From assembly GCA_017626145.1 (NCBI GenBank), contig JAGAJK010000079.1:1-42339 (forward strand): a DNA stretch of 42,339 nt. The letters run 5' to 3'. Positions 15,552 to 40,181 of the stretch are shown here, in pieces (position 1 is the first letter of the stretch; the number at the start of each line of letters is the position of its first letter). Origin of the DNA: Clostridia bacterium (GTDB taxonomy: Bacteria > Bacillota > Clostridia > RGIG6154). A program made the position numbers and the translations under genes. The notes under the pieces were generated by a model, which worked only from the letters and a program-made list of their open reading frames with translations, did no database searches and was not told where the DNA came from.

Positions 15552-18500
15552 ATGAAAAGAGTAACAGCACTAATGATAGCTTTAATACTTGTTTTGTCTT
15601 GCTTTGTATCTGTTAGTGCGGCAAGCAGTATCACACTGCCTGATTTGATTTCAAACAATATGCTCATTCAATGTGATGCTCCCATTAAGCTTTGGGGCTA
15701 CGGCGGAACAAGTGGTGAGCAGCTCGTTGTCATTTTTGAGGACGAGGAAGGGGAAGAGGTTAATTCAGGTCAGACGGTGATTGGTGATGAAGGGTTTAAT
15801 ATCACACTTCCTGCAATGGAAGCAGGCGGTCCCTACACCATAAGATTTTTAGGAAGCGACGGAGGAAAACTTGCCAGCGTAAACAACGTTTTAATAGGTG
15901 ATTTGTTCCTTCATGGCGGACAGAGTAATATGGCGTACCAGATTAACAAGACACCTATTGATATCGCTGAACGTGTAACACCTAAAAACACCAACGGACA
16001 GATAAGAGTGTTCGTAAACAGTTCCGCAAAATCCGAGTATGAAATGGATATGAAGGGTCAGTGGATAATCGCAGATGAAAACTTATCCGATTATTCGGCG
16101 GTAGGCTACGGAGCACTTGAAAAAATTTACGACTATATAAAAACACCTGTCGGAGGTATTTGTTCTGCTGTAGGCGGTGCCGGAATGGGTAAATTTTCAT
16201 CACGCAATGAAGATTTATTCCAAACCAGACTCGCACCTGCACTTCAGTTCAATTTAAAGGGTGTTATGTGGTATCAGGGTGAGACAGATGCCGTGTACAG
16301 AAGCACAAGCGATGAGTTTGTTGAAAAGTACAAGCAGCTTATTTCACTTGTTCGTGAGGAAAATAAAAACGAAAAGCTTCCGTTTTTACTTGTTCAGCAT
16401 CAGCCAAGCCCCTGGAAAGAGATTAAGTCAGATAATGTAAATTACCGTATTACAGACTTTTCAGACTTAAGAATCGGTATTGCAAATGCCTGCGAGGTAA
16501 TAGAAAATACAGATATGGCTGTTGCAGTTGATTTATCTGTTGCAAAATATATGAACAGAGGTCAGGAGCCTATTCATCCGTATATGAAGAAGCCACTTGC
16601 CGACAGACTTGGTTTGCTCGCTCTTGATGTAATATATGGTGAAGATGTGCAGGGTAAGAGCCCCTCTTACACAGGCTACAGCATTGACGGAAACAAATTA
16701 AAGGTAACTGTAAAGGATGCCTACGACGGACTTAAAACTGCTGATGGAAGTGAAGCTGCAGGATTTATGGTAGCAGGTGCCGATGGTGTATATTATGAAG
16801 CATCGGCAACTCTTTCGGGAAATGAAATTATCATTTCAAGTGATAAGGTAAGCAGTCCCGTTTCTGCATCATACGGATACGAAAAGCACAGATATCCTTA
16901 TACAGATATTGAAAACGAAGAGGATTTAAAGACTGCGCCAACAACTCCTGAGCTTCCTGCCAACGTTGTAAACAGCGCAAATCTTCCGCTTGCGGCTTTT
17001 GATACAACTCAGAGCCTTGGCGAAACTTATTCAAATTCAGGTTCTGAAGAAACCGATAATTCAGTTCAAATGCCCGACATCGTTCCTGTAACCGGTTCAA
17101 GCGACAAAACAATTTTGTATGTTGCAACCGACGGTAGTGACTCAAATAACGGTTCAATAAATTCACCTTTTGCTACTATCGTAAAGGCAAGAGATACGAT
17201 CAAACAGATGAAGCTTAAGGGAACCATTGGTAAAGACGGTGCCGTTGTTTATGTTCGTGGCGGAAAATATCAGATTTTAAAGCAGATTGACTTTACAAAA
17301 GAGGATTCAGGTACTAAGGATGCTCCTATTACATACAGAGCATATCCGGGTGAACAGGTTGATTTTGTAGGCGGTATAGATATTGCCTTTGATCAGTTCA
17401 AGCCTGTAACCGATACAAATATTCTTTCAAAGCTTGTTGACGAAACAGCAAAATCAAAGCTTGTTTCCATAAACTTAAAGGATTTGGGTCTTGAAGAAAT
17501 ACCTCTTCCCGAATTAATCGGTCAGTATTCCTATACATACGGTATGGCAGAATTGTACGACCATCCCAAGCCTACATATGCGGCGGCAGAATTAATGGTA
17601 AACGGTCAGATTCAGACTCTTGCAAGATACCCAAATGACGGCTTTATGGAAATAAGTGATATTGTGCATGAGGGTGCAATCCCACGTAACTGGGCAGACG
17701 ATAAAAAGGAATCTGCAGACTATGTAAAGCCTGAGGACAGATTTAACGACCCATTTACCATTGTTATTGACGACGATCGTCTTCAGCACTGGGAAGGCGT
17801 TGAGGATATGATTATTTACGGAAGATTCTACGTTGCATGGGCAGACCAGTCTGTTTACGTTGCAAATGTTGATCCCGTAAAGAAAACTATCACTTCAACA
17901 CATCCGTCCTGCTACGGTATAACCATAGGTCAGCCTGTATATGTATTCAACCTTATCGAAGAAATTGATATGCCGGGAGAATACTATATAGATAAAAACA
18001 GCGGTGAGCTTTATTACTACCCTGTTAAAGGTACTATAGAAGAGGTTAAGCTTACAACATTGACAGACCCAATGTTTGCTTTCGGCGACTGTGAATATAT
18101 CAACCTCAAGGACTTCCACTTAAGCTTTATGAGAGGCGGAGCAATCAGTTTTAACGGAAGCCGTAACTGCGAGGTTGAAGGTGTTGATATTGAATATACA
18201 GGTAAAATGGCAATCAACGGTGAAAATTCTTACAATTGCCGTGTTGCCAACAGCTATATTCATAACGTAAACGGCGGTATATTATTTTCCTGCGGCGACA
18301 GAGCTACATTAACACCGGGTAATATCGTTATTGAAAATAACGAATTCTTCGAGTGTGACAGAATTCAGAAGGCGTACATGAGAGCCTGCGAGGTTAAGGG
18401 TGTAGGAAACATCATAAGATTTAACAAGATGCACGGCTCGGAGCAGACTATAACGGGCTACACCGGTAATAACCATCATTTCTGTTATAACGAAATCTAC

Positions 18501-19616
18501 GATGCGGTATTAAATGCCGACGATATGGGTGCTTTCTATAACGGCAGAAATATTACATCACGAGGAAACAAGATGTACTTTAACTATTTCCATGATTTAG
18601 GACCTAAGATTTCAGTAGGTAACCACGGTGTTCAGGCGGTATACTTTGATGACTTTCAGAGCTGGTCCCACGTTGCGGGAAATATTTTCGAAAACATCAA
18701 GGGCAGAGTTTTTGCCTGTGCAGGAAGCCATAATGTATTTACAAACAACATTTTCATAAATGCAGGCGATATAGGCTCCTTTGGCCGTTCCTACGATTAC
18801 GGCGGCGGTAATGCTGCATGGTATGCAGGTTTATGGGCATCACTGGAGGAGGTTCCTTATACAAGTGATATATGGCTCGAGCAGTATCCTGAAATTGCAG
18901 AGGTTGTAGATGACAAGGGTCAGCTTGATGTTTGCAGAAACATTCGTGTTACCGATAACATTTTAATTGATACAGAAGATCCTGAAATTAAGGGTGAGGT
19001 TTCCGCAACCTTTACATATGACCGTAACCTTGTATATGATGACCCCGGTTTTGTTGATATGGAAAACAGAAATTATCTCTTAAAGCCTGATGCACAGATA
19101 TTTAAGGATAACCCTTCTTTTCAGCCAATACCTTTCACAAGAATAGGTATGTACACAGACAGAGCAAAAATGCGTGTAATGGATTCGGGCGTGTTTATGG
19201 TTGATTCACCTTATGCGTTTATCGGCGGAGAAAAGACGGAAAAATCAGGCATTGTAATTGAAAATGAAGTACCTTATGTGTCACTTAGAACACTTGCAGC
19301 AATCGTAGGTGCGGAGGTTTCCTTCGATGCCGAAACAAATGAAATCAAGGTTTCAACAGAATCAAAGATTGTTACATTTAAAGATGGCGAAACTGAAAAG
19401 CTTCAGGTAAATCAGAAAGAAAATGTTCTTTTAAAGCCTGTAGTAAACATAAATGATTCAAATTACTTGTCATTATATGATTTTGCCAAGATATTTGATA
19501 TGTATGTGCTTAATTTTGATAATATCTACGTTCTTGCTGAAATGGAAAACTTACTTGATGAAAATGCGGATGCGGAACTTATCAGATATTACAAGGATGA
19601 GTTAACGATATATTAA
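15552..19616 (+). CDS. Secreted SGNH esterase / beta-helix / amine-oxidase-N-like multidomain protein
   Basis: 1354-aa exported protein. Signal peptide 1-23 (cleavage after SVSA). Residues about 30-440 form a sialate O-acetylesterase-like SGNH domain, with nucleophile Ser125 in GGQSNM, a WYQGE block at 240-244 and catalytic-type His in IHPYMK near 341. From about 521 a right-handed beta-helix begins (ILYVATDGSDSNNGS, then ARYPNDGF and GAIPRNW), of the kind in pectate-lyase-like and GH141-like enzymes. The C-terminus (about 1215-1345; YVSLRTLAAIVGAEVSFD) is a copper-amine-oxidase-N-like domain, often a wall-associated module. AGGAGG precedes the ATG. Likely role: deacetylate and cleave an acetylated plant or mucosal polysaccharide outside the cell. 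Substrate not determinable. Confidence 0.85.
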   Translation: MKRVTALMIALILVLSCFVSVSAASSITLPDLISNNMLIQCDAPIKLWGYGGTSGEQLVVIFEDEEGEEVNSGQTVIGDEGFNITLPAMEAGGPYTIRFLGSDGGKLASVNNVLIGDLFLHGGQSNMAYQINKTPIDIAERVTPKNTNGQIRVFVNSSAKSEYEMDMKGQWIIADENLSDYSAVGYGALEKIYDYIKTPVGGICSAVGGAGMGKFSSRNEDLFQTRLAPALQFNLKGVMWYQGETDAVYRSTSDEFVEKYKQLISLVREENKNEKLPFLLVQHQPSPWKEIKSDNVNYRITDFSDLRIGIANACEVIENTDMAVAVDLSVAKYMNRGQEPIHPYMKKPLADRLGLLALDVIYGEDVQGKSPSYTGYSIDGNKLKVTVKDAYDGLKTADGSEAAGFMVAGADGVYYEASATLSGNEIIISSDKVSSPVSASYGYEKHRYPYTDIENEEDLKTAPTTPELPANVVNSANLPLAAFDTTQSLGETYSNSGSEETDNSVQMPDIVPVTGSSDKTILYVATDGSDSNNGSINSPFATIVKARDTIKQMKLKGTIGKDGAVVYVRGGKYQILKQIDFTKEDSGTKDAPITYRAYPGEQVDFVGGIDIAFDQFKPVTDTNILSKLVDETAKSKLVSINLKDLGLEEIPLPELIGQYSYTYGMAELYDHPKPTYAAAELMVNGQIQTLARYPNDGFMEISDIVHEGAIPRNWADDKKESADYVKPEDRFNDPFTIVIDDDRLQHWEGVEDMIIYGRFYVAWADQSVYVANVDPVKKTITSTHPSCYGITIGQPVYVFNLIEEIDMPGEYYIDKNSGELYYYPVKGTIEEVKLTTLTDPMFAFGDCEYINLKDFHLSFMRGGAISFNGSRNCEVEGVDIEYTGKMAINGENSYNCRVANSYIHNVNGGILFSCGDRATLTPGNIVIENNEFFECDRIQKAYMRACEVKGVGNIIRFNKMHGSEQTITGYTGNNHHFCYNEIYDAVLNADDMGAFYNGRNITSRGNKMYFNYFHDLGPKISVGNHGVQAVYFDDFQSWSHVAGNIFENIKGRVFACAGSHNVFTNNIFINAGDIGSFGRSYDYGGGNAAWYAGLWASLEEVPYTSDIWLEQYPEIAEVVDDKGQLDVCRNIRVTDNILIDTEDPEIKGEVSATFTYDRNLVYDDPGFVDMENRNYLLKPDAQIFKDNPSFQPIPFTRIGMYTDRAKMRVMDSGVFMVDSPYAFIGGEKTEKSGIVIENEVPYVSLRTLAAIVGAEVSFDAETNEIKVSTESKIVTFKDGETEKLQVNQKENVLLKPVVNINDSNYLSLYDFAKIFDMYVLNFDNIYVLAEMENLLDENADAELIRYYKDELTIY

Positions 19617-19631
19617 GAAGGGGAATGAAAA

Positions 19632-22600
19632 ATGTTGAAAAAAAGTATTAGTATTTTAGTAGTAATTTGCATGTTACTTACTTGTGTTCCTGCTTTAAGC
19701 TTTGCTTCCGAAGCAGAGGTAAGTAAATGCGATATGCCAATGGGCGAAGTTTTAAATGCCCGGTTTTTCGAAGGTAATACCTGCGGTTTTGAGCTTTTAA
19801 ATGCACAAACAGGTGCGGCTGTTACAACAGTGCCTGAAAGTGAAGGCTCTGAAAATTATGTGCTTAAATATACCGCAACCAAGCATAATGACGGTGCAAC
19901 AAGTGTTAATGGCGGTGCTGAACACATTGCCATTAAAGTAAACGGTGATGAAGGTATTAAATTTGTTGACGGAAGAAACATCATCATTGAAACAAAGTTC
20001 AAGAAAACTGCTGAAACAGCAAGATTGTATTTTAAATACAACATTAATCCTAAGGATAATTATAAGGAAGAAACAGCAAACTTGTTTACAATTCTTTCAA
20101 TCTGGCATGACGGTGTAGTTAAATATGCAAACGGCACCAGCACAGGAGATAACACACAGGTTGCAATGGCTAATTCTTCGCTTGCAGGCTACGGAACAAG
20201 CTGGGTTACTTCAAAAACAGTAATTAAGGGTGCATCCTTACTTGCAGATATTTATTTATACGGTGAAGACGGAACTTTAATAGAAACAATCGAAAATGCA
20301 AGCCTTAAGCAACCATCAGGCAGAACATCACTTGATCCTTCAGAAGCTCTTTATATTGAAGAAGCAACACATTTAAAGACACTTTCATTCAGAGGAAGAA
20401 AAGATGCAACTGATGTTTTAGTTGATTATGTTAAGGTTTCTGTAGAGGAAGAAGCAAAGGTAAATGCACCTGCAGTTATGCCTCTTTCAGGAAAATTTGA
20501 TGTAAATTTCGATGCAGTAACAGTTATTTCAAATGTTGCAGACTATTTTAAGCTTTACAATGAAGACGGCACTTTGGTTGAAGATGCAGAATTAACAGTT
20601 AATGGTAATAAGCTTACATTTGATTTAGGGTCTGTTCAGGCAGAAGGTGCAAAGTACGTTTTAAAGGTTGACAAAGCTTCTCTTGCCGACTATGGATATG
20701 TTTTTGAAGATGAAACAACAGATTATGAAATTACTGCATCAGCGTACTACGTAAATGCAGATTTCGGTGCCGGCGACAACGGCGGCTTTGAACTTCTTAA
20801 CAATCTTGAAGCAACAAGCATTTCAACAGAACCGATTGCAGAAAATTCAGAAAATTATGTTCTTAAATATTCTGCTGCAAACCACACATTAAACGGTACC
20901 TTAGCACAGGGTGGCGACGAACATATCGTAGTTAAGGTAAACGGTGACGCAGGTATTGAATACAAGGAAAATCAGAACATTGTAGTAGAAGCAAGATTTA
21001 AAAAGAATTCCGAAAACGGAAGAGTTTACTTCAAGCACAACATCAAGGTTAACGAAGCAAACGAAGAAGGCTACAACCTGTTCTCAATTGCGGCAATTTT
21101 CAACGGTACATCAGACGGTGTAAGATACCCATCAGGCTTCTCTGCAGTATCAGGTGTTGAAAATCTTCAGGTTAGTATGACAAAGCTTTCAGGCTATTCT
21201 GCAGGCTACGATGACAAGTACCTTACAGTTAAGGCTGTTATAAAGGGCAATACACACAAGGCAGACCTTTATTTCTACGATGAAAACGGCGAAAATGAAA
21301 CAATAATTGAAAATGCAGAGCTTGGTATTCCTACAGGCAGAGAAAACAACGTAAACGATACACACTTAAAGACATTGGCATTCAGAACAAGAAATGCGGC
21401 AACAGATGTTTATGTTGACTATGTAAAGGTATCCGTAACACAGGAAGCTGAAGTTAATGTTCCTGCAATCATGTCTCTTAATGGTGAGTTCAATGTTAAA
21501 TTCGTTGCAGAAGATACACCTGAAAATATCGGTGAATACTTCGAAATTTACAACTCATTAAACGAGCTTGTTGGCTTTAGCACAGTATCAGAAGATGACA
21601 CCGTTTCATTTAAGCTTGAAAAAGCTCCCGCTGAAGGTGAAAAATTCACAGTAAGAGTTAATAAGGAAGCTCTCGGTTTCCTCGGCTATAACTTTGCAGA
21701 CGAAGCAACCGATTATTCTGTTAAAGCAACAAAATATATAATTAACGATAATTTCGGTGAAAACGACTTAAACGGCTGGGCACTTAAAACAAGCACATTC
21801 GGTACATTAGGTACAGAATTAATTGCAGATAACAACTATGCTTTAAAGCTTGGTCTTGTAAATTCAGGATATATCTGGCAGGATAACAACTATGCATACA
21901 AAGCATTTGACGATATAGCATACGAAGAAGGAACAGATATTGTAATTAAAACAAAATTCAAGTACACAGATGATAACAAGGGTACAGCAGATGCACCAAA
22001 CACAACATGTGCAAGAACATACTTTAAATTTAACGTTCCCGAAACAGAAGTATACGGTAAGAACGTATTCAGTTTCTTTGAAGTAAAGGCTGATAACGGT
22101 TTTGCAATTGCAGACGGTAACAGCACAACTGCAACAGGAGAGTTTACAACAGAATATACATCAGGCAGCTACAAGGATGATAACAAAGCAAATGTTGAAA
22201 ATATGTGGTTTGACGTAACAATCAAAATCCACGGAACAACACAGACAGCATCAATCTATGTAACAGATGAAAACAAAAACGTAGTAGTAGACGCTGCTGC
22301 AGCAGACCTTACTCAGGATGCAACATATACAGATTTTGCAACGGATGCACTTAAAAACCTTGCATTCAGATTAAGACACGATTTATCTACAGTATTGGTT
22401 GACTACGTTAAGGTTTACAAGGAAAAACCCGTGAACTTTACAGTTCCCGAAATTATAGCTCTTGACGGTGAACTTGATGTTGCATTTGATATGGAAAATG
22501 TAACAGAAGAAATCGCCGATTGCTTCAAGCTTTACGATGATGCAGGTAATGTTGCAGAATCAACAGTCAGCGGAAATAAAATCAGCTATGCATTGGGTCA

Positions 22601-24761
22601 GCAGACTGAAGGCACAAAGTATGTTTTAAATGTTGACACAGATGCCCTTGCAAATATGGGCTACGCAATTAAGGGCATTGAAGATGAATATGAAATAACA
22701 GCTTCAGCTTACTACGTAAATGCAAACTTCGGTGCAAACGATAACGGCGGCTTTGAACTTCTTAATAACCTTGAAGCATCAAGCATTTCAACAGAAGCAA
22801 TTGAAGAGAATTCAGAAAACTATGTTCTTAAGTATCAAGCGGCAAACCATACATTAAACGGTACTTTAGCTCAGGGTGGCGACGAACATATCGTAGTTAA
22901 GGTAAACGGAGACGCAGGTATTGAATACAAGGAAAATCAGGACATCATAGTAGAGGCAAGATTTAAAAAGAATTCTGAAAGCGGAAGAGTTTACTTCAAG
23001 CACAACATCAAGGTTAACGAAGCAAACGAAGAAGGCTACAACCTGTTCTCAATTGCAGCAATTTTCAACGGCACATCAGACGGTGTAAGATATCCTGAAA
23101 AATTCTCAGCTGTAGCAGGTGTTGAAAATCTTCAGGTTGGTATGGCAAAGGTTACAGGCTACGCAACCGGCTATAATGACAAGTACCTTACAGTTAAGGC
23201 TGTTATAAAGGGTAACACACATAAAGCTGACCTTTATTTCTACGATGAAAACGGCGAAAACGAAACAATTATTAAGGATGCAGAGCTTGGTATTCCTACA
23301 GGCAGAGAAAACAACGTAAACGATACACACTTAAAGACATTGGCATTCAGAACAAGAAATGCGGCAACAGATGTTTATGTTGACTATGTAAAGGTATACA
23401 AGCAGACATCAATCAGTCTTGACTTTGACGGTAAGATTATCGACAAGAACGGAAATATGTACATCTGGGCAGATGCAGACACACTTGATATAATTTATCC
23501 ACACATTCAGCTTGTTGACAGCGAAAACAAGGAAGTTGAAATTGCAACTGAGATAATGGGTGACGGTTCTGTTAAGATTGACCCTATAGACGCACTTGAA
23601 ATCGGCACATACACATTAAAGGTTGACACAAAGGCTCTTGAAGCTTATGCAATTGATGAATCAGAAATTACAGTAGATGTAAGAGACAATACTCTTTCTT
23701 ACAGCGAAAGCTTTGAAGATGACCACGAATGGGTACTTAATACCTTCTCGATGGGGGAAGCAACAGATGCAGCACAGACAGTAGAAAAAGAAGGCGAAAA
23801 CAGCTTCCTCCGTGTTAGCCTTACAAAGCAGAAATCAATGAAGAACGGCGTTACAACCGCTTACAAATTCGGTGATAACGGCTTTGTTATGGACAGTGAC
23901 GGCTACACAGTAATTGAAGCAAAGCTTCGTACAAATTCAAATAGTTTCAGAAAATACTTTAAGTTCAACACAGATTACGATAACGGCTTCTTTGCAAACA
24001 CAAGAACATTATTTGCACTTGATTACCCCGAAGCAGGCAAAATCAGCTACTTTGCATTAAGACAGAACATAAAGAGCGAAAACGCATCTGCATATTATCA
24101 GGGTGCAGGAACAGCGTTGGAAGAATATGCTTTCGATAAGTGGTACACAGTAAGAGCAGTTTTCGACAACAAGGAACGCACAGGAAAATACTATATGCTT
24201 GACGAAAACGGTAAAGTTGTTGCAGAATCAGAAAAAATCAGTATGAATGATTCTGAACCTCAGGACTTCACTGAATATGGTGCAGCTAACTGGTATAACT
24301 TTGCTGACCACAACATTACAGACCGTGAACAGCTTCGTTACATTGATGAGCTTGCATTTGTTTTAAGAAACACACCAACACTTACAGAGGCAGAAACACT
24401 TGATATCGATGACGTTAAGCTTTACAATACAAAATCTCTTGAAGGTATTGTAGCAGATAAAGCAACACTCGGCTTAAAGAAAGACGGTGTTGATTTTGAA
24501 GGCGACCTTGTGGCAGGAACATATTATCCAAAGGCTGATATAGAGCTTGCTTCAAGCAAAGACCTTACACTTATTGCTGTTCTTTACAATGGCGATACAA
24601 TCGAAAATATGGTAGCATATCCGTTTAATGGTTCAACAGGCGAAGTTGTTGCAGACAAAGCATTGGTAATTGACGATGCAACAGACTGCAAAATTAAATT
24701 ATTCCTCTGGAATTCACTTGAAGGTATGGCTCCTGTTTGCGGATCGTTGGAATTTCATTGA
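19632..24761 (+). CDS. Giant secreted lectin-like repeat protein, ends at in-frame TGA before a beta-helix
   Basis: 1709 aa to the TGA. Signal peptide about 1-26. Then five concanavalin/LamG-like jelly-roll modules (about 35-275, 369-600, 703-935, 1024-1255, 1352-1600), mostly separated by Ig-like (SbsA/Big-type) domains ending YVLKVD or similar. Modules 2 and 4 are almost identical. Each jelly roll ends with a ThL-KTLxFR then VDYVKV strand. The tail (about 1610-1709) resembles a clostridial domain ending FLWNSLEGMAPVC. Expected role: surface capture of polysaccharide. AAGGGG precedes the ATG, 15 nt after the previous gene. The reading frame continues past the TGA (24759-24761) directly into a beta-helix domain without a frame change; see the next feature. 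Confidence 0.85.
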   Translation: MLKKSISILVVICMLLTCVPALSFASEAEVSKCDMPMGEVLNARFFEGNTCGFELLNAQTGAAVTTVPESEGSENYVLKYTATKHNDGATSVNGGAEHIAIKVNGDEGIKFVDGRNIIIETKFKKTAETARLYFKYNINPKDNYKEETANLFTILSIWHDGVVKYANGTSTGDNTQVAMANSSLAGYGTSWVTSKTVIKGASLLADIYLYGEDGTLIETIENASLKQPSGRTSLDPSEALYIEEATHLKTLSFRGRKDATDVLVDYVKVSVEEEAKVNAPAVMPLSGKFDVNFDAVTVISNVADYFKLYNEDGTLVEDAELTVNGNKLTFDLGSVQAEGAKYVLKVDKASLADYGYVFEDETTDYEITASAYYVNADFGAGDNGGFELLNNLEATSISTEPIAENSENYVLKYSAANHTLNGTLAQGGDEHIVVKVNGDAGIEYKENQNIVVEARFKKNSENGRVYFKHNIKVNEANEEGYNLFSIAAIFNGTSDGVRYPSGFSAVSGVENLQVSMTKLSGYSAGYDDKYLTVKAVIKGNTHKADLYFYDENGENETIIENAELGIPTGRENNVNDTHLKTLAFRTRNAATDVYVDYVKVSVTQEAEVNVPAIMSLNGEFNVKFVAEDTPENIGEYFEIYNSLNELVGFSTVSEDDTVSFKLEKAPAEGEKFTVRVNKEALGFLGYNFADEATDYSVKATKYIINDNFGENDLNGWALKTSTFGTLGTELIADNNYALKLGLVNSGYIWQDNNYAYKAFDDIAYEEGTDIVIKTKFKYTDDNKGTADAPNTTCARTYFKFNVPETEVYGKNVFSFFEVKADNGFAIADGNSTTATGEFTTEYTSGSYKDDNKANVENMWFDVTIKIHGTTQTASIYVTDENKNVVVDAAAADLTQDATYTDFATDALKNLAFRLRHDLSTVLVDYVKVYKEKPVNFTVPEIIALDGELDVAFDMENVTEEIADCFKLYDDAGNVAESTVSGNKISYALGQQTEGTKYVLNVDTDALANMGYAIKGIEDEYEITASAYYVNANFGANDNGGFELLNNLEASSISTEAIEENSENYVLKYQAANHTLNGTLAQGGDEHIVVKVNGDAGIEYKENQDIIVEARFKKNSESGRVYFKHNIKVNEANEEGYNLFSIAAIFNGTSDGVRYPEKFSAVAGVENLQVGMAKVTGYATGYNDKYLTVKAVIKGNTHKADLYFYDENGENETIIKDAELGIPTGRENNVNDTHLKTLAFRTRNAATDVYVDYVKVYKQTSISLDFDGKIIDKNGNMYIWADADTLDIIYPHIQLVDSENKEVEIATEIMGDGSVKIDPIDALEIGTYTLKVDTKALEAYAIDESEITVDVRDNTLSYSESFEDDHEWVLNTFSMGEATDAAQTVEKEGENSFLRVSLTKQKSMKNGVTTAYKFGDNGFVMDSDGYTVIEAKLRTNSNSFRKYFKFNTDYDNGFFANTRTLFALDYPEAGKISYFALRQNIKSENASAYYQGAGTALEEYAFDKWYTVRAVFDNKERTGKYYMLDENGKVVAESEKISMNDSEPQDFTEYGAANWYNFADHNITDREQLRYIDELAFVLRNTPTLTEAETLDIDDVKLYNTKSLEGIVADKATLGLKKDGVDFEGDLVAGTYYPKADIELASSKDLTLIAVLYNGDTIENMVAYPFNGSTGEVVADKALVIDDATDCKIKLFLWNSLEGMAPVCGSLEFH
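20736..21431 (+). repeat. Long internal direct repeat, copy 1
   Basis: About 696 bp encoding lectin-like module 2. It recurs at 22701-23396 with very high identity and no visible indel (constant offset 1965 bp, 655 codons). The module between the copies is divergent. Confidence 0.9.
22701..23396 (+). repeat. Long internal direct repeat, copy 2
   Basis: Encodes lectin-like module 4. Differences from copy 1 are scattered, mostly synonymous or conservative, with clusters at the start and near 23096-23170. Suggests recent duplication or gene conversion. Confidence 0.9.
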
Positions 24762-26909
24762 CTGAACAGGGGAAGCTTCAAAGTTTATGTTGACTCCGAA
24801 AGCGGTAGCGATACCGCTTCGGGTCTTTCCCCGGAAGAAGCTTTAAAATCTGTTGAGGCGGCATATAACAAAGTTAATAATACCATCAACAGTGAAGAAA
24901 TTTACGACGCTGAAATACTTTTAATGGAAGGAACATATTCTCCCGTTACTTTAAGTAATGACAGCGATGTTAATATAACACTTTCTTCATACAACGGTGA
25001 AAATGCAAGAATTATGGGAGCGACAGCTCTTTCTCTAAAGGATGCAAAGGCGGTTACAGATTCGAAGATTCTTGGCAGACTTTCCGATACAAATGCACAA
25101 AGCAAGCTTTACTGCATAGATATTTCTCATCTTAAGGATTCTCTTCCCGGACTTTCACTTCCCGGTGCATACAATCTTAAAAGTGCATTTGCCAAATACG
25201 GTTCAAGATTTGGCGTAACGTATCCTTATATAACAACAACCTGCGAAGTATTTTTCGAAAATGATATTATGACGAATGCAAGATATCCTAATGACGGATA
25301 TTTGAATACAAATACATTTGCGGTAAATTATATAGGCGCAATCCCACGAAACTGGGAGGATGACTATAAGAATAAGGATGTATACGTTCCCGACGAGGTT
25401 GACGAAAACGGAAAATACCTTCGTGATATAACAGATGGCTTTAAACTCGGCTACAACGATGAAAGAGCAGATAACTGGACAAATGCCCCCGATGCACTTA
25501 TGTTCGGTTACTGGGGTAACGGTTGGGCGACACAGACCGTTCCCGTGAAAAGCATTGACGTACAAAACAACGTGCTTACATCACTTCATCCGAGTAATTA
25601 CGGCGTTTCAGACAGTATGAGATTCTATATATATAATCTCCTTGAAGAAATCGATACAGAGGGAGAATACTATATAGACAGAGAAAATTATAAATTATAT
25701 TTCTACCGTTCGGCAGAAATGACAGACGATAAGAATATTTATATTTCTCTTTCCGACAGTCCGCTTGTTAAAATAAACAAGTCAAAAAATATTACGGTTA
25801 AGGATATTACATTAACTGCATCAAGAGGAAATGGTATTGCGGTTAACAATTCAAGTAATATTAACATTTTAAACTGTAGTATTTTAAACACAGCAAATAA
25901 TGCTGTTTCTATGGACTATGTAACCGATTGCACAATTGACGGTTGCACAATTAAAGACGTAAACGGCGGTATAATTGTTTCTCACGCAGGAGATGTTAAA
26001 ACTCTTACTGAGGGCAGAAACGTAATAAGCAATAACACAATTTCAAGATTCGCAAGAATCAATAAAACTTATAAATACGCCGCTAACGTAAACGGTGTAG
26101 GAAATAAGATAATACATAATAAAATAAGTGATACCGAGCATACGGCAATCGGCTTTGGCGGTTGTAACAATGAAATATCTTATAACGATATTTCCAACGT
26201 ATGTCAGGAGGTTAACGACGCAAGTGCCATCTATGTCGGCAGAAGCTGGATTAACAGAGGCAATATTATAAAGCATAATTACATTCACGACATTTATCCC
26301 GATGAAGCTGTAGCAGAGTCTTCACCCTGCTCAGGTATATACTTTGACGACCATTATGCCGACGGTAATGTTTACGGTAACATATTTGTCAACATTTCAG
26401 GCTATGGCGTAAAGCTTCACGGCGGACGTGAAATAAATGTAGAGAATAATATTTTTGTTAACTGCAGTAAGAATTCTGCATATTTCAACAACTACGGTGC
26501 AAATTACAGCTATTATCTTGAAGAGGCAGGCGGAGACGAAGAGGTTGCAATGGCAAATTATGCCGTTAAGTTCTTAAACCAGGAAAACTCCCTTAATAAC
26601 GCTCTTTCAACCTATGACGATGCTGTATGGAGCGAACGCTTCCCTGAATTCTGGTCTATGGCAAAAACCAATCCTACAGAATTCAGAAAGCAAAGCTATA
26701 ACACTTATTTAAACAATATCGAATTAAATTCAGAACTTTTTGTTCACAGATATTATTACGACAAGCAGGACTTAACAACTGAGGATGCGTACTCGGCAAC
26801 CTCGGAGGATTTCGTTGATTACGAAGGCGGCAACTTTAATTTAACTGATGCCGCAAAAGCTAAATTTACGGAATTTATTCCTGTAGATTTCTTGGCAATT
26901 AAGAAATAA
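24762..26909 (+). CDS. Right-handed beta-helix protein without its own start; same frame as upstream gene
   Basis: The frame is open from the codon after the TGA at 24759 (715 codons). The first ATG is at 24924, but the domain clearly begins earlier: FKVYVDSESGSDTASG, encoded at about 24777-24824, matches the YVATDGSDSNNGS opening of the beta-helix in the 15552 gene. There is no in-frame ATG, GTG or TTG between 24762 and 24923, no Shine-Dalgarno before 24924 and no signal peptide. Shared blocks with the 15552 protein include ARYPNDGY, GAIPRNW and EYYIDRE, so this is a paralogous lyase/hydrolase-type helix. It is either the lost C-terminus of a 2425-residue lectin-enzyme or is made by readthrough. 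A start at 24924 would give 661 aa lacking the first strands and export signal. Confidence 0.75.
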   Translation: MNRGSFKVYVDSESGSDTASGLSPEEALKSVEAAYNKVNNTINSEEIYDAEILLMEGTYSPVTLSNDSDVNITLSSYNGENARIMGATALSLKDAKAVTDSKILGRLSDTNAQSKLYCIDISHLKDSLPGLSLPGAYNLKSAFAKYGSRFGVTYPYITTTCEVFFENDIMTNARYPNDGYLNTNTFAVNYIGAIPRNWEDDYKNKDVYVPDEVDENGKYLRDITDGFKLGYNDERADNWTNAPDALMFGYWGNGWATQTVPVKSIDVQNNVLTSLHPSNYGVSDSMRFYIYNLLEEIDTEGEYYIDRENYKLYFYRSAEMTDDKNIYISLSDSPLVKINKSKNITVKDITLTASRGNGIAVNNSSNINILNCSILNTANNAVSMDYVTDCTIDGCTIKDVNGGIIVSHAGDVKTLTEGRNVISNNTISRFARINKTYKYAANVNGVGNKIIHNKISDTEHTAIGFGGCNNEISYNDISNVCQEVNDASAIYVGRSWINRGNIIKHNYIHDIYPDEAVAESSPCSGIYFDDHYADGNVYGNIFVNISGYGVKLHGGREINVENNIFVNCSKNSAYFNNYGANYSYYLEEAGGDEEVAMANYAVKFLNQENSLNNALSTYDDAVWSERFPEFWSMAKTNPTEFRKQSYNTYLNNIELNSELFVHRYYYDKQDLTTEDAYSATSEDFVDYEGGNFNLTDAAKAKFTEFIPVDFLAIKK
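24800..24819 (+). promoter_or_regulatory. GNRA-loop hairpin just after the in-frame TGA
   Basis: AAGCGGTA pairs perfectly with TACCGCTT around a GCGA tetraloop. It lies 38 nt after the TGA, inside the coding frame of the beta-helix. It could modulate readthrough or be chance; no function is proven. Confidence 0.3.
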
Positions 26910-26937: not shown

Positions 26938-29900
26938 GTGGGTAAAAAAATTATAAGCATTATTATAACAGCTTGCTTGATTTTATCCTGTTTTGCAACC
27001 GTATCTTTTGCCTCGGCTCAAGTGCAGTACGAAAAGCCTCAGGGTGTGATACTTAATGCACAGTTTGCCGAAGGCAACAATGGCGGTTTTGAGCTTCTGA
27101 GTGCAAAAACGGGTGCGGCTGTTACAACAGTACCTGAAAGCGAAGGCTCTGACAATTATGTGCTTAAATATACTGCAACTAACCACTCGGCAGGCGCAAC
27201 CTCCGCTAACGGTGGTGCAGAACATATCGAGGTTAAGGTAGGCGGAGAACAGGGCATTGAATTTGTTGAAGGCAGAAACATTATAATTGAAACAAAATTC
27301 AGAAAAACAAATGCCGCAACAAGAGTATACCTTAAGTACAATATGTACCCGAAGGATAACTACAAGGAAGAAACAGCTAACTTGTATTCACTTGTAGCTC
27401 TCTGGCACGACGGAGGAGTAAGATACGCAAACGGCTCAAGCGGTACAGGCTCAAATCTTGACCAGGTTTCAATGAAGGTGTCTGAACTTGAGTGTGGCAC
27501 AGACTATCTTACTGCAAAAATAGTAATTAAGGGCACATCACTTCTTGCAGATGTATATTTAACTGACGAAGAAGGAAATACACAGACTATTGAAAATGTA
27601 AGCTTAAAACAGCCTGTAGACAGAACCTCTTTAGACCCGTCAGATGCCATGTACATAAAAGAGGCTACACACTTAAAAACGCTTTCATTCAGAACGAGAA
27701 GCGGCGGAACCACATCAGCAACAGATGTAATAGTTGATTATTTAAAGGTTACACAGGAGCTGACATACACATCAACTCTTGATAAGAACATTGTAGGCGA
27801 AGACGAGAATATAGTTGTATCTATGGTAACAGATGCTACCGATTTAGATGACGTTTCGGCATTTTACGACCTTTATACAGCTGAAGGACAGCTTGTTGCA
27901 TCTGAAAAAAGCTTTGATAAAGCAACAAAGAAGCTTACGATTAATCCTGCAGAAAATCTGATTGCAGGTAACAATTATGTAGTTAAGGTAGATAACGCAG
28001 GACTTTTGTCTGAACTTAATTATGTATATGATACGGAATCGGAAGAGCTTTCTTTAAGCATTGTTTCCTGCAAGGCGGAAAATGTTTTAATTGACGGCAG
28101 ACTTATTGACGGAGAAATAATTGAAGGTACATATAAATACGTTTCTTCCTTTGACAAAACAGGTGAAACCTATGCTTGGTATGCTGCACCGTCAATAGAC
28201 GGGCCCTGGACTGTAATTGACGGACAAACTTCTTCTTCAATTGAAGCAAGCACAGCTCTTGCAAACGGACAGTACCTTAAAATGTCGGTAATACCGCAGT
28301 CACAAATTGGTGCAGGTATAGAAGCATTTTCTAATATTCTTTGTCCCGAAGCGGCACCTGTGGCAGATAATTTAAGACTTGCAGAGGGCAATAAGTTTAT
28401 AGGAGACACCTTGGTTGCTGAATATGACTATTTTGATGCAAACGGTGACGAAGATAACGGCACAGTTATTAAATGGTATATAGGCAACACAGCAGAATCA
28501 AATGAATATGAAATGATTTCGCAGTCAGGCAGCTTAAGACTTCTTGACGAATACGAAGGAAAATATATCAGATTCTCTGTTACTCCTAAAAATGAAATAG
28601 ATAACGGTGATGAATGTGTTGAGGTATTCGGCAATCCATTCGGACCTGTAAGTAATTATTTAACAGGCTCAAACCTTTTCTCAGACCCGGGATTTGAAAC
28701 AGGTACAACCGAGGGAATAAAAGGCTCAACCTTCCCTGCAGAATTATTTGAAATTGTAACAAAAACAGATGATTCTGACGGACGTGTTTATTCGGGTGAT
28801 TATTCATTGTACGTAGGCCCAAGACCTGAAAACTATTCCACATGGGGAAAGAATGTCAATTATGTACCGGGTAAAACATATCTTCTTTCAGGTATGGTTA
28901 AATCCGTAACAGATGCAAGCATAAATGACTACGAAGGCTATGGCGGTGTAGCTGATTCCATTTTACGTCCTTTCAGAGATGAAGAAAAGGTAACAATCAA
29001 CAACGAAACATGGACAAGAGTAACTTTAACCGTTGTTACAAACGAAACCGCAAGCTCAGGTACCTTCGGACTTCTTACATTCAGCGGTCAGGGTAAGCAG
29101 GCGGTTTATGTAGACGATATGTATTTCGGTGAGCTTAAGATAACAGATATCATTACTGAAGAAATTCAGCCTACTGTTATTCCTGAAAAGGAAAACATTG
29201 TAATAAGAGTTTTCAAGGATAAGATGTTAAATCAGTTTGGCACAACAACAGGTCTTGAACATGAAGATGCCGACGTTGAGGTGTTGCAGGGCAAAGGCGT
29301 TGAGATTGATAACAACAACTGCGTTGTTATTACTCCCGAGGCAGTTGCAGGTGAAGTTGTTTTAAGAGTTTCATGTACTCCTGAGACAACAACAGCACCG
29401 TATTTCTCAAAGGAAGTAAAATTCACATTGCTTCCTAACACCAACGTAACACCTTCAGTTAAAAATGTTGTTGCAAGCGGAACTGTAGCAACAGGCGAAG
29501 TTTTATCTGTAAATTACGACTACCATCAGGTAGAAAACAAATTGAATGCATCAACCTTTAAGTGGTTTTATCAGGATACACCTACAGGCACAGCAACATA
29601 TATTCCAAACGCAACAGCAAGCACTTATACTGTAGCATCAGCTTATGCAGATAAGTTTATAGGCTGTGAGGTTACTCCTGCAACCAATGATGGATTAACA
29701 GGCAATCCGGTGCGTTCAAATATTCTCGTAAAAGCGGTTGCACCTTATGCAACAAAGCTTGAAGTAACAGGTAAGTTCAGCGTTGGAGAAACTGTTACCG
29801 GTAAATATATATTCGGTGATTATAACAATGATACCGAAGGTGTATCAACCTATTCGTGGTTTATGAGTGATACTCTTGACGGAAGATATGTTCCACTTTC

Positions 29901-31020
29901 AGGTGAAACCAACAAAACTCTCGTTTTAACAGAAGAAATGGTAGGAAAGTATCTGAAATTTGCTGTAGTTCCTACATCAAACACCCGGCCTTATGCAGGT
30001 GAAATGGTATTTTCACAGCCTTATGCAGGTCCTGCAAAGCCGGAAGCAAGAAATATTACAATTAGCAATAACGGTTCTTTATATGTAGGATCGTACGATT
30101 ATTTCCATCAGCACGGCTTTAAGGAAAAGAATACAAAGTATGAGTGGTTTGTTGACGGTATTTTAGTATCAACAAGTGCTCAGTATGAGGTGAATTTCGA
30201 AGGCGCTAAAACCGTTACCTTTAAGGTTACTCCCGGTTGCGAAGGTAATCCTTCCACAGGAAATGCGGTTATGGCATCATATACAATTACCGGCAATCTG
30301 CCACAAGGCGGAGGCACCGTCAGCGGCGGTGGTTTCGGGGGAGGTGGACTCTCCGGTGGCGGCTTCGGCGGTGGCAGTGGCGGTGTTGCAGGCGGAACTT
30401 CAGGCGGCAATACGTCAGGATTTACTTCCGGTGTTCAGAGCATTAACGATGCAGAAGGAATTACCCCTGAGGTAAAGCCTGCAACAGATATTGATTCTCA
30501 CTGGTCAAAGAGCTATATGGAAGAAATGTCAAAAAGAGGAATTATGACTCCTGATAATGAGGGTAAATATAACCCTGATGAAATTGTCGGAAGAGGGGAT
30601 ATGATTAAATATCTCTTTAAAGCTCTTAAGCTTACCGAAAGCGAGTACACAGGCGAATTCAGCGACGTAAAGGCTGAAGACGAATTTGCAGGAATGCTTC
30701 AGACTATGGTAAATAACGGAACAATCAGTAAGTATGATACTTTCAGACCAAATGACGGTATTTCAAGAGAAGAGCTTTGTAAGGTTTTATACATTTCCCT
30801 TGACAACGCAGGAAAGCTTGAAAGTGCTGCAGAAAACAAGATTTCTGCATTTGCGGACTATTCAAGTATTTCTGACTGGGCAAAGGAATATGTAAACGCA
30901 ATTTATCAGAACGGCATTATGATTGGTGTATCGGAAACTTTGTTTGCACCTGCTGAAAACGTAACGAAGGCACAGGTTGCAACACTTCTTACAAGAATCT
31001 TAAATATTATAGAGAGGTAG
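26938..31020 (+). CDS. SLH-anchored lectin/Ig/CBM surface protein
   Basis: 1360-aa cell-surface protein. Signal peptide about 1-25. A lectin-like module (about 35-275) is closely related to module 1 of the 19632 protein. Several Ig-like domains of about 85-95 aa follow (pattern TYAWYAAPSIDGPWTVI; repeated near 390, 475, 830, 930 and 1020). A CBM4/9-like domain (about 575-730; LFSDPGFETG to YVDDMYFG) and a Gly/Ser linker (about 1122-1160) come before three SLH repeats (about 1180-1357; HWSKSYMEEMSKRGI, WAKEYVNAIYQNGIM). The SLH repeats should anchor it to pyruvylated wall polymer. It starts at GTG with AAAGGAAGG upstream. It may be the wall-bound scaffold for its unanchored neighbours (inference). 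Confidence 0.9.
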   Translation: MGKKIISIIITACLILSCFATVSFASAQVQYEKPQGVILNAQFAEGNNGGFELLSAKTGAAVTTVPESEGSDNYVLKYTATNHSAGATSANGGAEHIEVKVGGEQGIEFVEGRNIIIETKFRKTNAATRVYLKYNMYPKDNYKEETANLYSLVALWHDGGVRYANGSSGTGSNLDQVSMKVSELECGTDYLTAKIVIKGTSLLADVYLTDEEGNTQTIENVSLKQPVDRTSLDPSDAMYIKEATHLKTLSFRTRSGGTTSATDVIVDYLKVTQELTYTSTLDKNIVGEDENIVVSMVTDATDLDDVSAFYDLYTAEGQLVASEKSFDKATKKLTINPAENLIAGNNYVVKVDNAGLLSELNYVYDTESEELSLSIVSCKAENVLIDGRLIDGEIIEGTYKYVSSFDKTGETYAWYAAPSIDGPWTVIDGQTSSSIEASTALANGQYLKMSVIPQSQIGAGIEAFSNILCPEAAPVADNLRLAEGNKFIGDTLVAEYDYFDANGDEDNGTVIKWYIGNTAESNEYEMISQSGSLRLLDEYEGKYIRFSVTPKNEIDNGDECVEVFGNPFGPVSNYLTGSNLFSDPGFETGTTEGIKGSTFPAELFEIVTKTDDSDGRVYSGDYSLYVGPRPENYSTWGKNVNYVPGKTYLLSGMVKSVTDASINDYEGYGGVADSILRPFRDEEKVTINNETWTRVTLTVVTNETASSGTFGLLTFSGQGKQAVYVDDMYFGELKITDIITEEIQPTVIPEKENIVIRVFKDKMLNQFGTTTGLEHEDADVEVLQGKGVEIDNNNCVVITPEAVAGEVVLRVSCTPETTTAPYFSKEVKFTLLPNTNVTPSVKNVVASGTVATGEVLSVNYDYHQVENKLNASTFKWFYQDTPTGTATYIPNATASTYTVASAYADKFIGCEVTPATNDGLTGNPVRSNILVKAVAPYATKLEVTGKFSVGETVTGKYIFGDYNNDTEGVSTYSWFMSDTLDGRYVPLSGETNKTLVLTEEMVGKYLKFAVVPTSNTRPYAGEMVFSQPYAGPAKPEARNITISNNGSLYVGSYDYFHQHGFKEKNTKYEWFVDGILVSTSAQYEVNFEGAKTVTFKVTPGCEGNPSTGNAVMASYTITGNLPQGGGTVSGGGFGGGGLSGGGFGGGSGGVAGGTSGGNTSGFTSGVQSINDAEGITPEVKPATDIDSHWSKSYMEEMSKRGIMTPDNEGKYNPDEIVGRGDMIKYLFKALKLTESEYTGEFSDVKAEDEFAGMLQTMVNNGTISKYDTFRPNDGISREELCKVLYISLDNAGKLESAAENKISAFADYSSISDWAKEYVNAIYQNGIMIGVSETLFAPAENVTKAQVATLLTRILNIIER

Positions 31021-38415: not shown

Positions 38416-40181
38416 TCACCGTCCTTTAATAAGCTTTCTGCATATGCAGTTAATTTGCCGTTGCCTTCGAGATAAAGAGCATCAATTTCAGCCTCTGTCT
38501 TTTTGAAGGCGTCGCTTTCAAATTCATTATAGTTCCAGTCGATAAATTTCTGACGCATACGGTTTATAAAGCTACGCGCGTCATCTTTATTGTCTACGTC
38601 ATAATCACTGCCGAGTACATATACAAGCTTGTCTGTAACATAATTCTGACGGCTTTTTGAGCAGTTGGCGTCAACAAGGTCGAAGGAGTTCTGCTGAAGA
38701 TAAACAGCATCAAGCATTTCCGACTTAAGGTAAGTTGTGTAATCTTCAAGTGTTGTACCCTCTTCACCGACAACCTTCATCATAGAATCGATTTCGCTGC
38801 CGTGGATTAATATATCCCTGCAGAATTCCGACTTTTTACTGTCGATAACACTTTTATACTTTGACCAGGAAATAAGTGGATCAATTGCAGGATATTTTCT
38901 TGCATCTGAACGCTCACGGGAAAGACCGTGGAAAGCACCGACAACCTTTAAGGTTGCCTGTGTTACAGGCTCTTCAAAGTTACCGCCTGCAGGAGAAACT
39001 GTTCCGCCGATTGTAACAGAGCCTTTGCTTCCGTCAGGAAGACGAACATAGCCTGCTCTTTCATAAAATGCCGCAATGTAGGATTCTAAATATGCAGGGA
39101 AAGCTTCTTCGCCGGGAATTTCTTCAAGTCTTCCCGACATTTCACGAAGAGCCTGCGCCCAACGTGATGTTGAGTCTGCAAGAAGCAGTACGTTAAGCCC
39201 CATCTGGCGGTAATACTCTGCCAAAGTTACCGATGTGTAAACCGAAGCTTCACGGGATGCAACCGGCATTGAGGATGTATTACATATAATAATGGTACGC
39301 TCCATAAGAGAACGTCCTGTTTTCGGGTCAGTAAGCTCAGGGAACTCGGTAAGAGTTTCAACTACTTCACCTGCACGTTCACCGCAGGCTGCGATAATAA
39401 CGATATCCACATCCGCGTATTTTGACGTTGTGTGCTGTAATACGGTTTTACCTGCACCGAAAGGTCCCGGTGTACAGTAAGTACCGCCCTTTGCTACAGG
39501 GAAGAAGGAGTCGATAAGGCGAACCTTTGTTTCCATTGTTTCAACAGGTGCAAGTCTTTCGCTATAGCATTTAACTGCACGCTTAACAGGCCACTTGAAG
39601 GACATTGATACGTTGATTTCACGGCCTCTGTCATCGGTTACAACTGCAACAGTTTCTTTAACTGTGTATTCGCCTTTTGAAACAATTGATTTAACTGTGT
39701 AATTGCCAAGTAAATAAAATGGTATAAAAATCTTATGTGTAAAAGGTCCTTCGGGAACAGTACCTATATATTCACCTGCACGAAGAACGTCGCCAACCTT
39801 TGCAGTTGGTGTGAATTCCCATTTTTTCTCAACATTGAGTCCGTCGGCATAAATTCCGCGTTCTAAAAACCAGCCTGCCTGCTCTGCAAGGATGGGAAGC
39901 GGATTCTGAAGTCCATCATAAACCTGTCCAAGCAAGCCCGGTCCGAGATCAGCAGAGAGCATATCTCCCGTAAATTCAACAATATCGCCGCATCTGATAC
40001 CATCGGTCATTTCATAAACCTGTATCTGTGCTACGTTGCCTCTTATACGTATAACCTCGCTTTTAAGCGCAATATCGCCTACCTTAACAAAGCATATTTC
40101 GTTCATGGAAACATTGCCGTCAAATTCTACCGACACCAGGTTTCCGTTTATGCTTACAACTTTTCCTTTATTTTCGGTCAT
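38412..40181 (-). CDS. ntpA: V-type ATP synthase subunit A (catalytic)
   Basis: 589 aa, the ATP-hydrolysing or synthesising subunit. Walker A is GPFGAGKT (239-246, Lys245). The bulge (non-homologous) region is about 110-190, and [20 protein letters not shown] and GEEAFPAYL are conserved blocks. The [14 protein letters not shown] stretch after Walker A is the form I associate with spirochaete and Bacteroidetes-type enzymes, whereas Enterococcus has YVGCGERGNEM. The ATG overlaps the preceding gene's TAA. Confidence 0.96.

Follow-up and report, generated by a model that had tools for sequence, protein, structure and literature searches.

Viruses and animals provide well-known cases of programmed stop-codon readthrough in which the 3′ signal is structured. 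In bacteria, programmed stop-codon readthrough is very rarely reported, and our search of the literature (open-access papers) yielded no case of bacterial chromosomal readthrough of such a form. The type II readthrough signals of alphaviruses, tobraviruses and coltiviruses consist of UGA-CGG or UGA-CUA together with an extended 3′ stem-loop (PMC3542737). In E. coli, UGA is the leakiest stop codon, with tryptophan as the main residue inserted (PMC11126739). Programmed −1 frameshifting is described in bacteria for insertion sequences and dnaX, and measurements in E. coli place C_CCU_UUU among the motifs prone to frameshifting (PMC4066793).

Here we describe a locus in a Clostridia bacterium whose genome is available as a draft assembly of 98 contigs, rated 95% complete. 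The whole stretch of DNA analyzed, referred to as the window (contig C52), comprises 42,339 nt. It carries a gene for a secreted lectin that ends with TGA and whose reading frame stays open far beyond this stop; paralogues of this gene lie on contigs C29 and C8 of the same assembly. Judging from the sequence comparisons and structure predictions reported below, we consider it likely that programmed readthrough of the UGA gives rise to a minor secreted lectin-glycosidase of 2425 aa. The features of the locus are as follows.

15552..19616, + strand: preceding gene, a secreted SASA esterase joined to a beta-helix with no intervening stop (context and negative control)
19632..24761, + strand: ORF of a secreted multi-domain lectin (1709 aa) with a signal peptide, four jelly-roll repeats (aligned) with Ig-like spacers, a C-terminal 'FLWNSLEGMAPV' domain and a TGA end
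24759..24761, + strand: in-frame TGA, the proposed readthrough site, in the context CAT TGA CTG; conserved in the paralogues C29 and C8
24762..26909, + strand: post-stop frame of 715 codons, followed by TAA at 26907; right-handed beta-helix related to GH141 (BT_1002, PDB 5mqp) and to PDB 9rx2
24769..24832, + strand: proposed 3′ stimulatory RNA, with an outer stem GGGGAAG (24769-24775)/TTTCCCC (24826-24832), 8 nt past the TGA, around an inner 14-bp hairpin
24792..24825, + strand: inner hairpin GAC-CCGAA-GCGGTA/TACCGC-TTCGG-GTC with a GCGA loop, common to the alternative folds
24924..24926, + strand: first in-frame ATG, an unlikely start without Shine-Dalgarno sequence and without signal peptide, inside the fold
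26938..31020, + strand: next gene of the apparent operon, a secreted protein with S-layer homology domains (context)

The locus shares with viral type II signals the UGA-C, a stable extended structure about 8 nt past the stop and a C-terminal enzyme extension. The UGA lies inside an otherwise continuous coding frame, and the 3′ stem-loop at this distance forms, in the window, in one of two competing folds, as an alternative outer stem competes with the one listed above. The triplet right after the UGA is CUG in the window and CUU in C29 and C8, not CGG or CUA; the first two bases match CUA, while the third is G (window) or U (C29, C8) and not A. The window case also differs in being bacterial and chromosomal, in concerning secreted proteins and in occurring in several paralogues within one genome. 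While the window element appears, by analogy, to work like a type II signal, we do not file it as a member because of the deviating triplet. The natural leakiness of UGA in E. coli represents background error (PMC11126739), whereas context and structure look selected here.

GH2 and GH3 enzymes are encoded upstream of these genes, and the neighbouring genes are consistent with a glycan-degradation locus. The assignment of the lectin part relies on a ConA-like jelly-roll model and on matches, both of them weak, and its fold model is of low confidence. The sequences of jelly-roll repeats 2 and 4 (window 20721-23475) look nearly identical, which suggests a recent internal duplication.

A preliminary description of this DNA had stated that the lectin ORF ends at 24759-24761 and that the same frame remains open for 715 codons, which the ORF coordinates confirmed. 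It had also pointed to 54 codons without any ATG, GTG or TTG. Indeed, the earliest of these codons in frame past the TGA is the ATG at 24924 (codon 55), and no Shine-Dalgarno sequence was found ahead of it. A start at this ATG had been expected to remove the opening strands of the domain; when the post-stop region was modelled (mean pLDDT 84.5), a strand (residues 5-10), a helix (31-44) and a second strand (49-54) all preceded it, so that initiation there would damage the domain. A separate start or promoter for the beta-helix was rejected: there is no usable start, and promoter-like matches in the region were near chance level.

The post-stop region matched the Pfam family Beta_helix (E 2.3e-16) and, marginally, GH141_M (E 0.03). 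A profile of the region matched PDB 9rx2 (E 7e-58) and the GH141 enzyme BT_1002 (PDB 5mqp, E 2.8e-28), which was also the best fold match of the model (E 6e-20). From profile and fold, the region is predicted to be a beta-helix catalytic domain homologous to BT_1002, at 14-16% identity to GH141. It shares with GH141 the right-handed beta-helix and differs in being a proposed readthrough extension of a lectin, in this low identity and in its putative activity. Beta-helix homologues with a signal peptide of their own, which the preliminary description had named as evidence against a fused product, do occur in other species (L091 and L092), but these are stand-alone proteins without the lectin part.

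To place the TGA in its genomic background, we surveyed 1.79 of the 2.78 Mb of the same genome, covering 1,137 ORFs with a length of 200 aa or more. These ended with TAA (802), TGA (227) or TAG (108), in agreement with the earlier statement that TGA is a normal stop elsewhere. Only three genes, the one in the window and those on C29 and C8, ran for about 700 codons in frame past the stop without a usable start. The remaining continuations of several hundred codons had their own start codon within a few codons, like ordinary next genes. The argument previously made from the TGA-C context holds: of 175 long ORFs that end in TGA, only 4 have CT right behind it, and three of these are the genes of the window, C29 and C8. 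For further continuations of the frameshift type, a scan gave no convincing case, although its start-codon filter also missed the gene on C75 described below.

A whole-genome junction search returned four places that cover the border between lectin and beta-helix, namely the window, C29, C8 and C82. The window, C29 and C8 carry one TGA each at the junction (C29:22704 and C8:14400 for the paralogues), and C82 carries none. All three stops fall into one alignment column, in the contexts CAT TGA CTG (window), GAT TGA CTT (C29) and CAT TGA CTT (C8); C82 is fused by a sense codon and reads ACA CTT at the corresponding site. The search for the junction was extended to genomes of the class (391), the order (6) and the phylum (398), none of them a relative of the same genus. 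It was found only in the bacterium's own genome, and the comparison is thus one of paralogues within one draft assembly, in which C29 and C8 are not independent of each other. Single-stop matches in two other genomes (G326, G361) had the stop at the normal end of the lectin domain. A scan of genome contigs returned distant beta-helix genes only.

A fifth gene of this kind (C75:18617, L036, minus strand) has C_CCT_TTT directly before a TGA at the border. In the −1 frame the sequence goes on as 'PF-LTLAQAQNYIRS', in keeping with the domain, and a shift would restore the beta-helix exactly. The heptamer follows the X_XXY_YYZ pattern in the zero frame; the spacer TGACA (5 nt, within the 5-9 nt typical of such sites) separates it from a 10-bp stem, CTGGCGCAAG/CTTGCGTCAG, and GGAG lies 10 nt upstream of it. 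Heptamer, short spacer, long stem and upstream GGAG are shared with programmed −1 frameshifting in insertion sequences and dnaX (PMC4066793), from which the window gene differs in staying in frame. It is possible that C75 instead suffered a one-base deletion in the T run, and we are less sure of frameshifting in this candidate than of readthrough in the window, C29 and C8.

RNA stability was scanned in 90-nt windows along each of the five genes, with synonymous shuffles that keep the protein sequence. The stretch just past the border was at or near the top in all five: between 0 and 5 of 618-835 overlapping windows were as stable, mostly those at the border. Compared to the synonymous shuffles, z was −4.2 in the window gene, −4.1 in C29, −3.6 in C8, −2.7 in C82 and −5.0 in C75. 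Eight control beta-helix genes without such a border gave no structure signal at the corresponding place, and at most 0.1% of 2,816 random internal coding windows were equally stable. In dinucleotide shuffles the window structure was only modestly unusual (z −1.8). Strong post-stop structure is also predicted for C29 and C8, with a stem start less clear than in the window; their hairpin reads TACAGGGGAG-AAAGA-CTCCCCTGTA. C82 keeps it with one double change, and covariation of the C29/C8/C82 hairpin was not significant. A search with the 100-nt C29 element in 60 relatives recovered it only in C8 and, weakly, C82 of the same genome, and Rfam gave no match in the window.

Strong hairpins also follow 40 of 699 ordinary stops in the genome, where they are probably terminators. 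That hairpins after stops are common here, and that C82 has its hairpin at the corresponding place without a stop, would suit an explanation in which the RNA pauses translation or assists folding between the domains, or is what remains of a terminator, the stops being secondary and readthrough slight. We regard this as unlikely. A terminator scan of the junction found no terminator-like site and no T-run, and if the RNA served as a pause only, one would hardly expect three of five genes to have a stop, and a fourth to have a frameshift site, at one border. Such an element would also leave the maintained downstream frame unexplained, which readthrough accounts for.

Evidence for this maintenance, and for selection on the RNA itself, came from substitution rates. 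Between C29 and C8, dS was 1.13 before the stop and 1.36 after the element, compared to 0.06 in the first 24 codons past the TGA. The near-identical block extends from the TGA to codon 23, with which pairing in the hairpin ends; synonymous codons were identical at 22 of 22 comparable sites in codons 1-23 versus 59% elsewhere. This pattern argues that the C29/C8 element is constrained as RNA. The block could also stem from gene conversion, but gene conversion would not predict boundaries that coincide with the stop and the hairpin. In the post-stop region, dN/dS was 0.16-0.35 in all computable comparisons (0.23-0.31 for the window against its paralogues), with no internal stop or frameshift, as would be expected of a region that evolves as a working protein. 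The TGA probably predates the divergence of C29 and C8 (dS about 1.4). In that case the downstream frame stayed under selection once the stop had arisen, unless the block was copied later.

These data bear on the view that the genes are pseudogenes, in which independent nonsense mutations cut off the enzyme and the downstream part is decaying. An in-frame stop without a following start is what this view predicts, and the assembly does contain another, apparently broken gene at C75:53876-54772, the C-terminal half of a beta-helix gene with no recognisable N-terminal half. However, three of the five sister genes share stop codon, CT context and codon position, their post-stop frames of 715 (window), 685 and 698 codons are intact and show the low dN/dS given above, and the probable common origin of the TGA in C29 and C8 does not fit independent mutations. 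We therefore judge decay to be quite improbable.

Synthesis of the beta-helix as a separate protein, through termination and reinitiation or an unrecognised start, appears very unlikely. C29 and C8 offer a GTG three codons past the TGA and the window a CTG directly past it, but none of these sites has a Shine-Dalgarno sequence, and the window lacks any conventional start codon over the stretch noted above. The enzyme would furthermore be made without a signal peptide, whereas its stand-alone relatives L091 and L092 have one. An assembly or sequencing error at 24759, for which one could cite the draft state of the assembly, is extremely improbable, as three contigs agree in the stop and its position, and a conserved element follows it. 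Of the three options offered in the preliminary description, programmed readthrough is thus supported, while a fresh nonsense mutation and a sequence error became unlikely, because TGA-CT recurs in two paralogues, is followed by RNA structure and precedes a region under purifying selection. The paralogues, the RNA element and the frameshift sibling, which lay outside the preliminary description, make up the strongest evidence.

Two other ways of decoding the UGA were tried and rejected. For selenocysteine, no SelB or tRNA-Sec was found above family cut-offs in the assembly, which is rated 95% complete. Against a reassigned UGA or a suppressor tRNA, TGA is a common stop (227 of 1,137 ORFs), prfB is present and no UCA anticodon occurred among the tRNAs scanned (part of 50 matches).

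The readthrough that we infer, including its efficiency, the inserted residue and its purpose, could proceed as follows. For most ribosomes translation would end at the UGA, and the product would be the secreted lectin of 1709 aa. A minority would be slowed by the stable downstream RNA structure and, in the weak UGA-CU context, a near-cognate tRNA, most likely tRNA-Trp, would be placed at the UGA, with tryptophan probably inserted. Continuation in frame would then yield the 2425-aa secreted protein, which would carry the GH141-like beta-helix enzyme and use the signal peptide of the lectin. The biological purpose may be to keep lectin and lectin-enzyme in a certain proportion, either constant or varying with conditions.

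With moderate confidence, and on sequence grounds, we further propose that a recoding module is located at a fixed domain border of this secreted glycan-binding family. Its mechanisms would be interchangeable (UGA readthrough in three genes, −1 frameshifting in one and plain fusion in one), and it would set the share of lectin that carries the glycosidase, possibly via growth conditions that alter UGA leakiness. Automated gene prediction would treat the lectin as complete, and the enzyme would be overlooked or annotated as a truncated protein that is not secreted. Should the proposal be confirmed, the locus would allow one to study in a natural bacterial setting how RNA structure overrides RF2, and would be a case of a glycan-degrading bacterium that tunes binding against cutting from one gene.

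The gene for RF2 itself, prfB, was located on C14 (about 38935-40051), with prfA directly downstream. It is arranged in the customary way for +1 frameshifting (AGGG...CTT stop C), with TAG instead of TGA as the zero-frame stop. TAG should not be recognised by RF2. If this TAG is real, RF2 would no longer exert feedback by way of UGA, and the leakiness of UGA could be affected. Among the tRNA genes, a degenerate copy of tRNA-Trp(CCA) was observed at C82:5792-5860, directly upstream of the intact tRNA-Trp; it still reads CCA.
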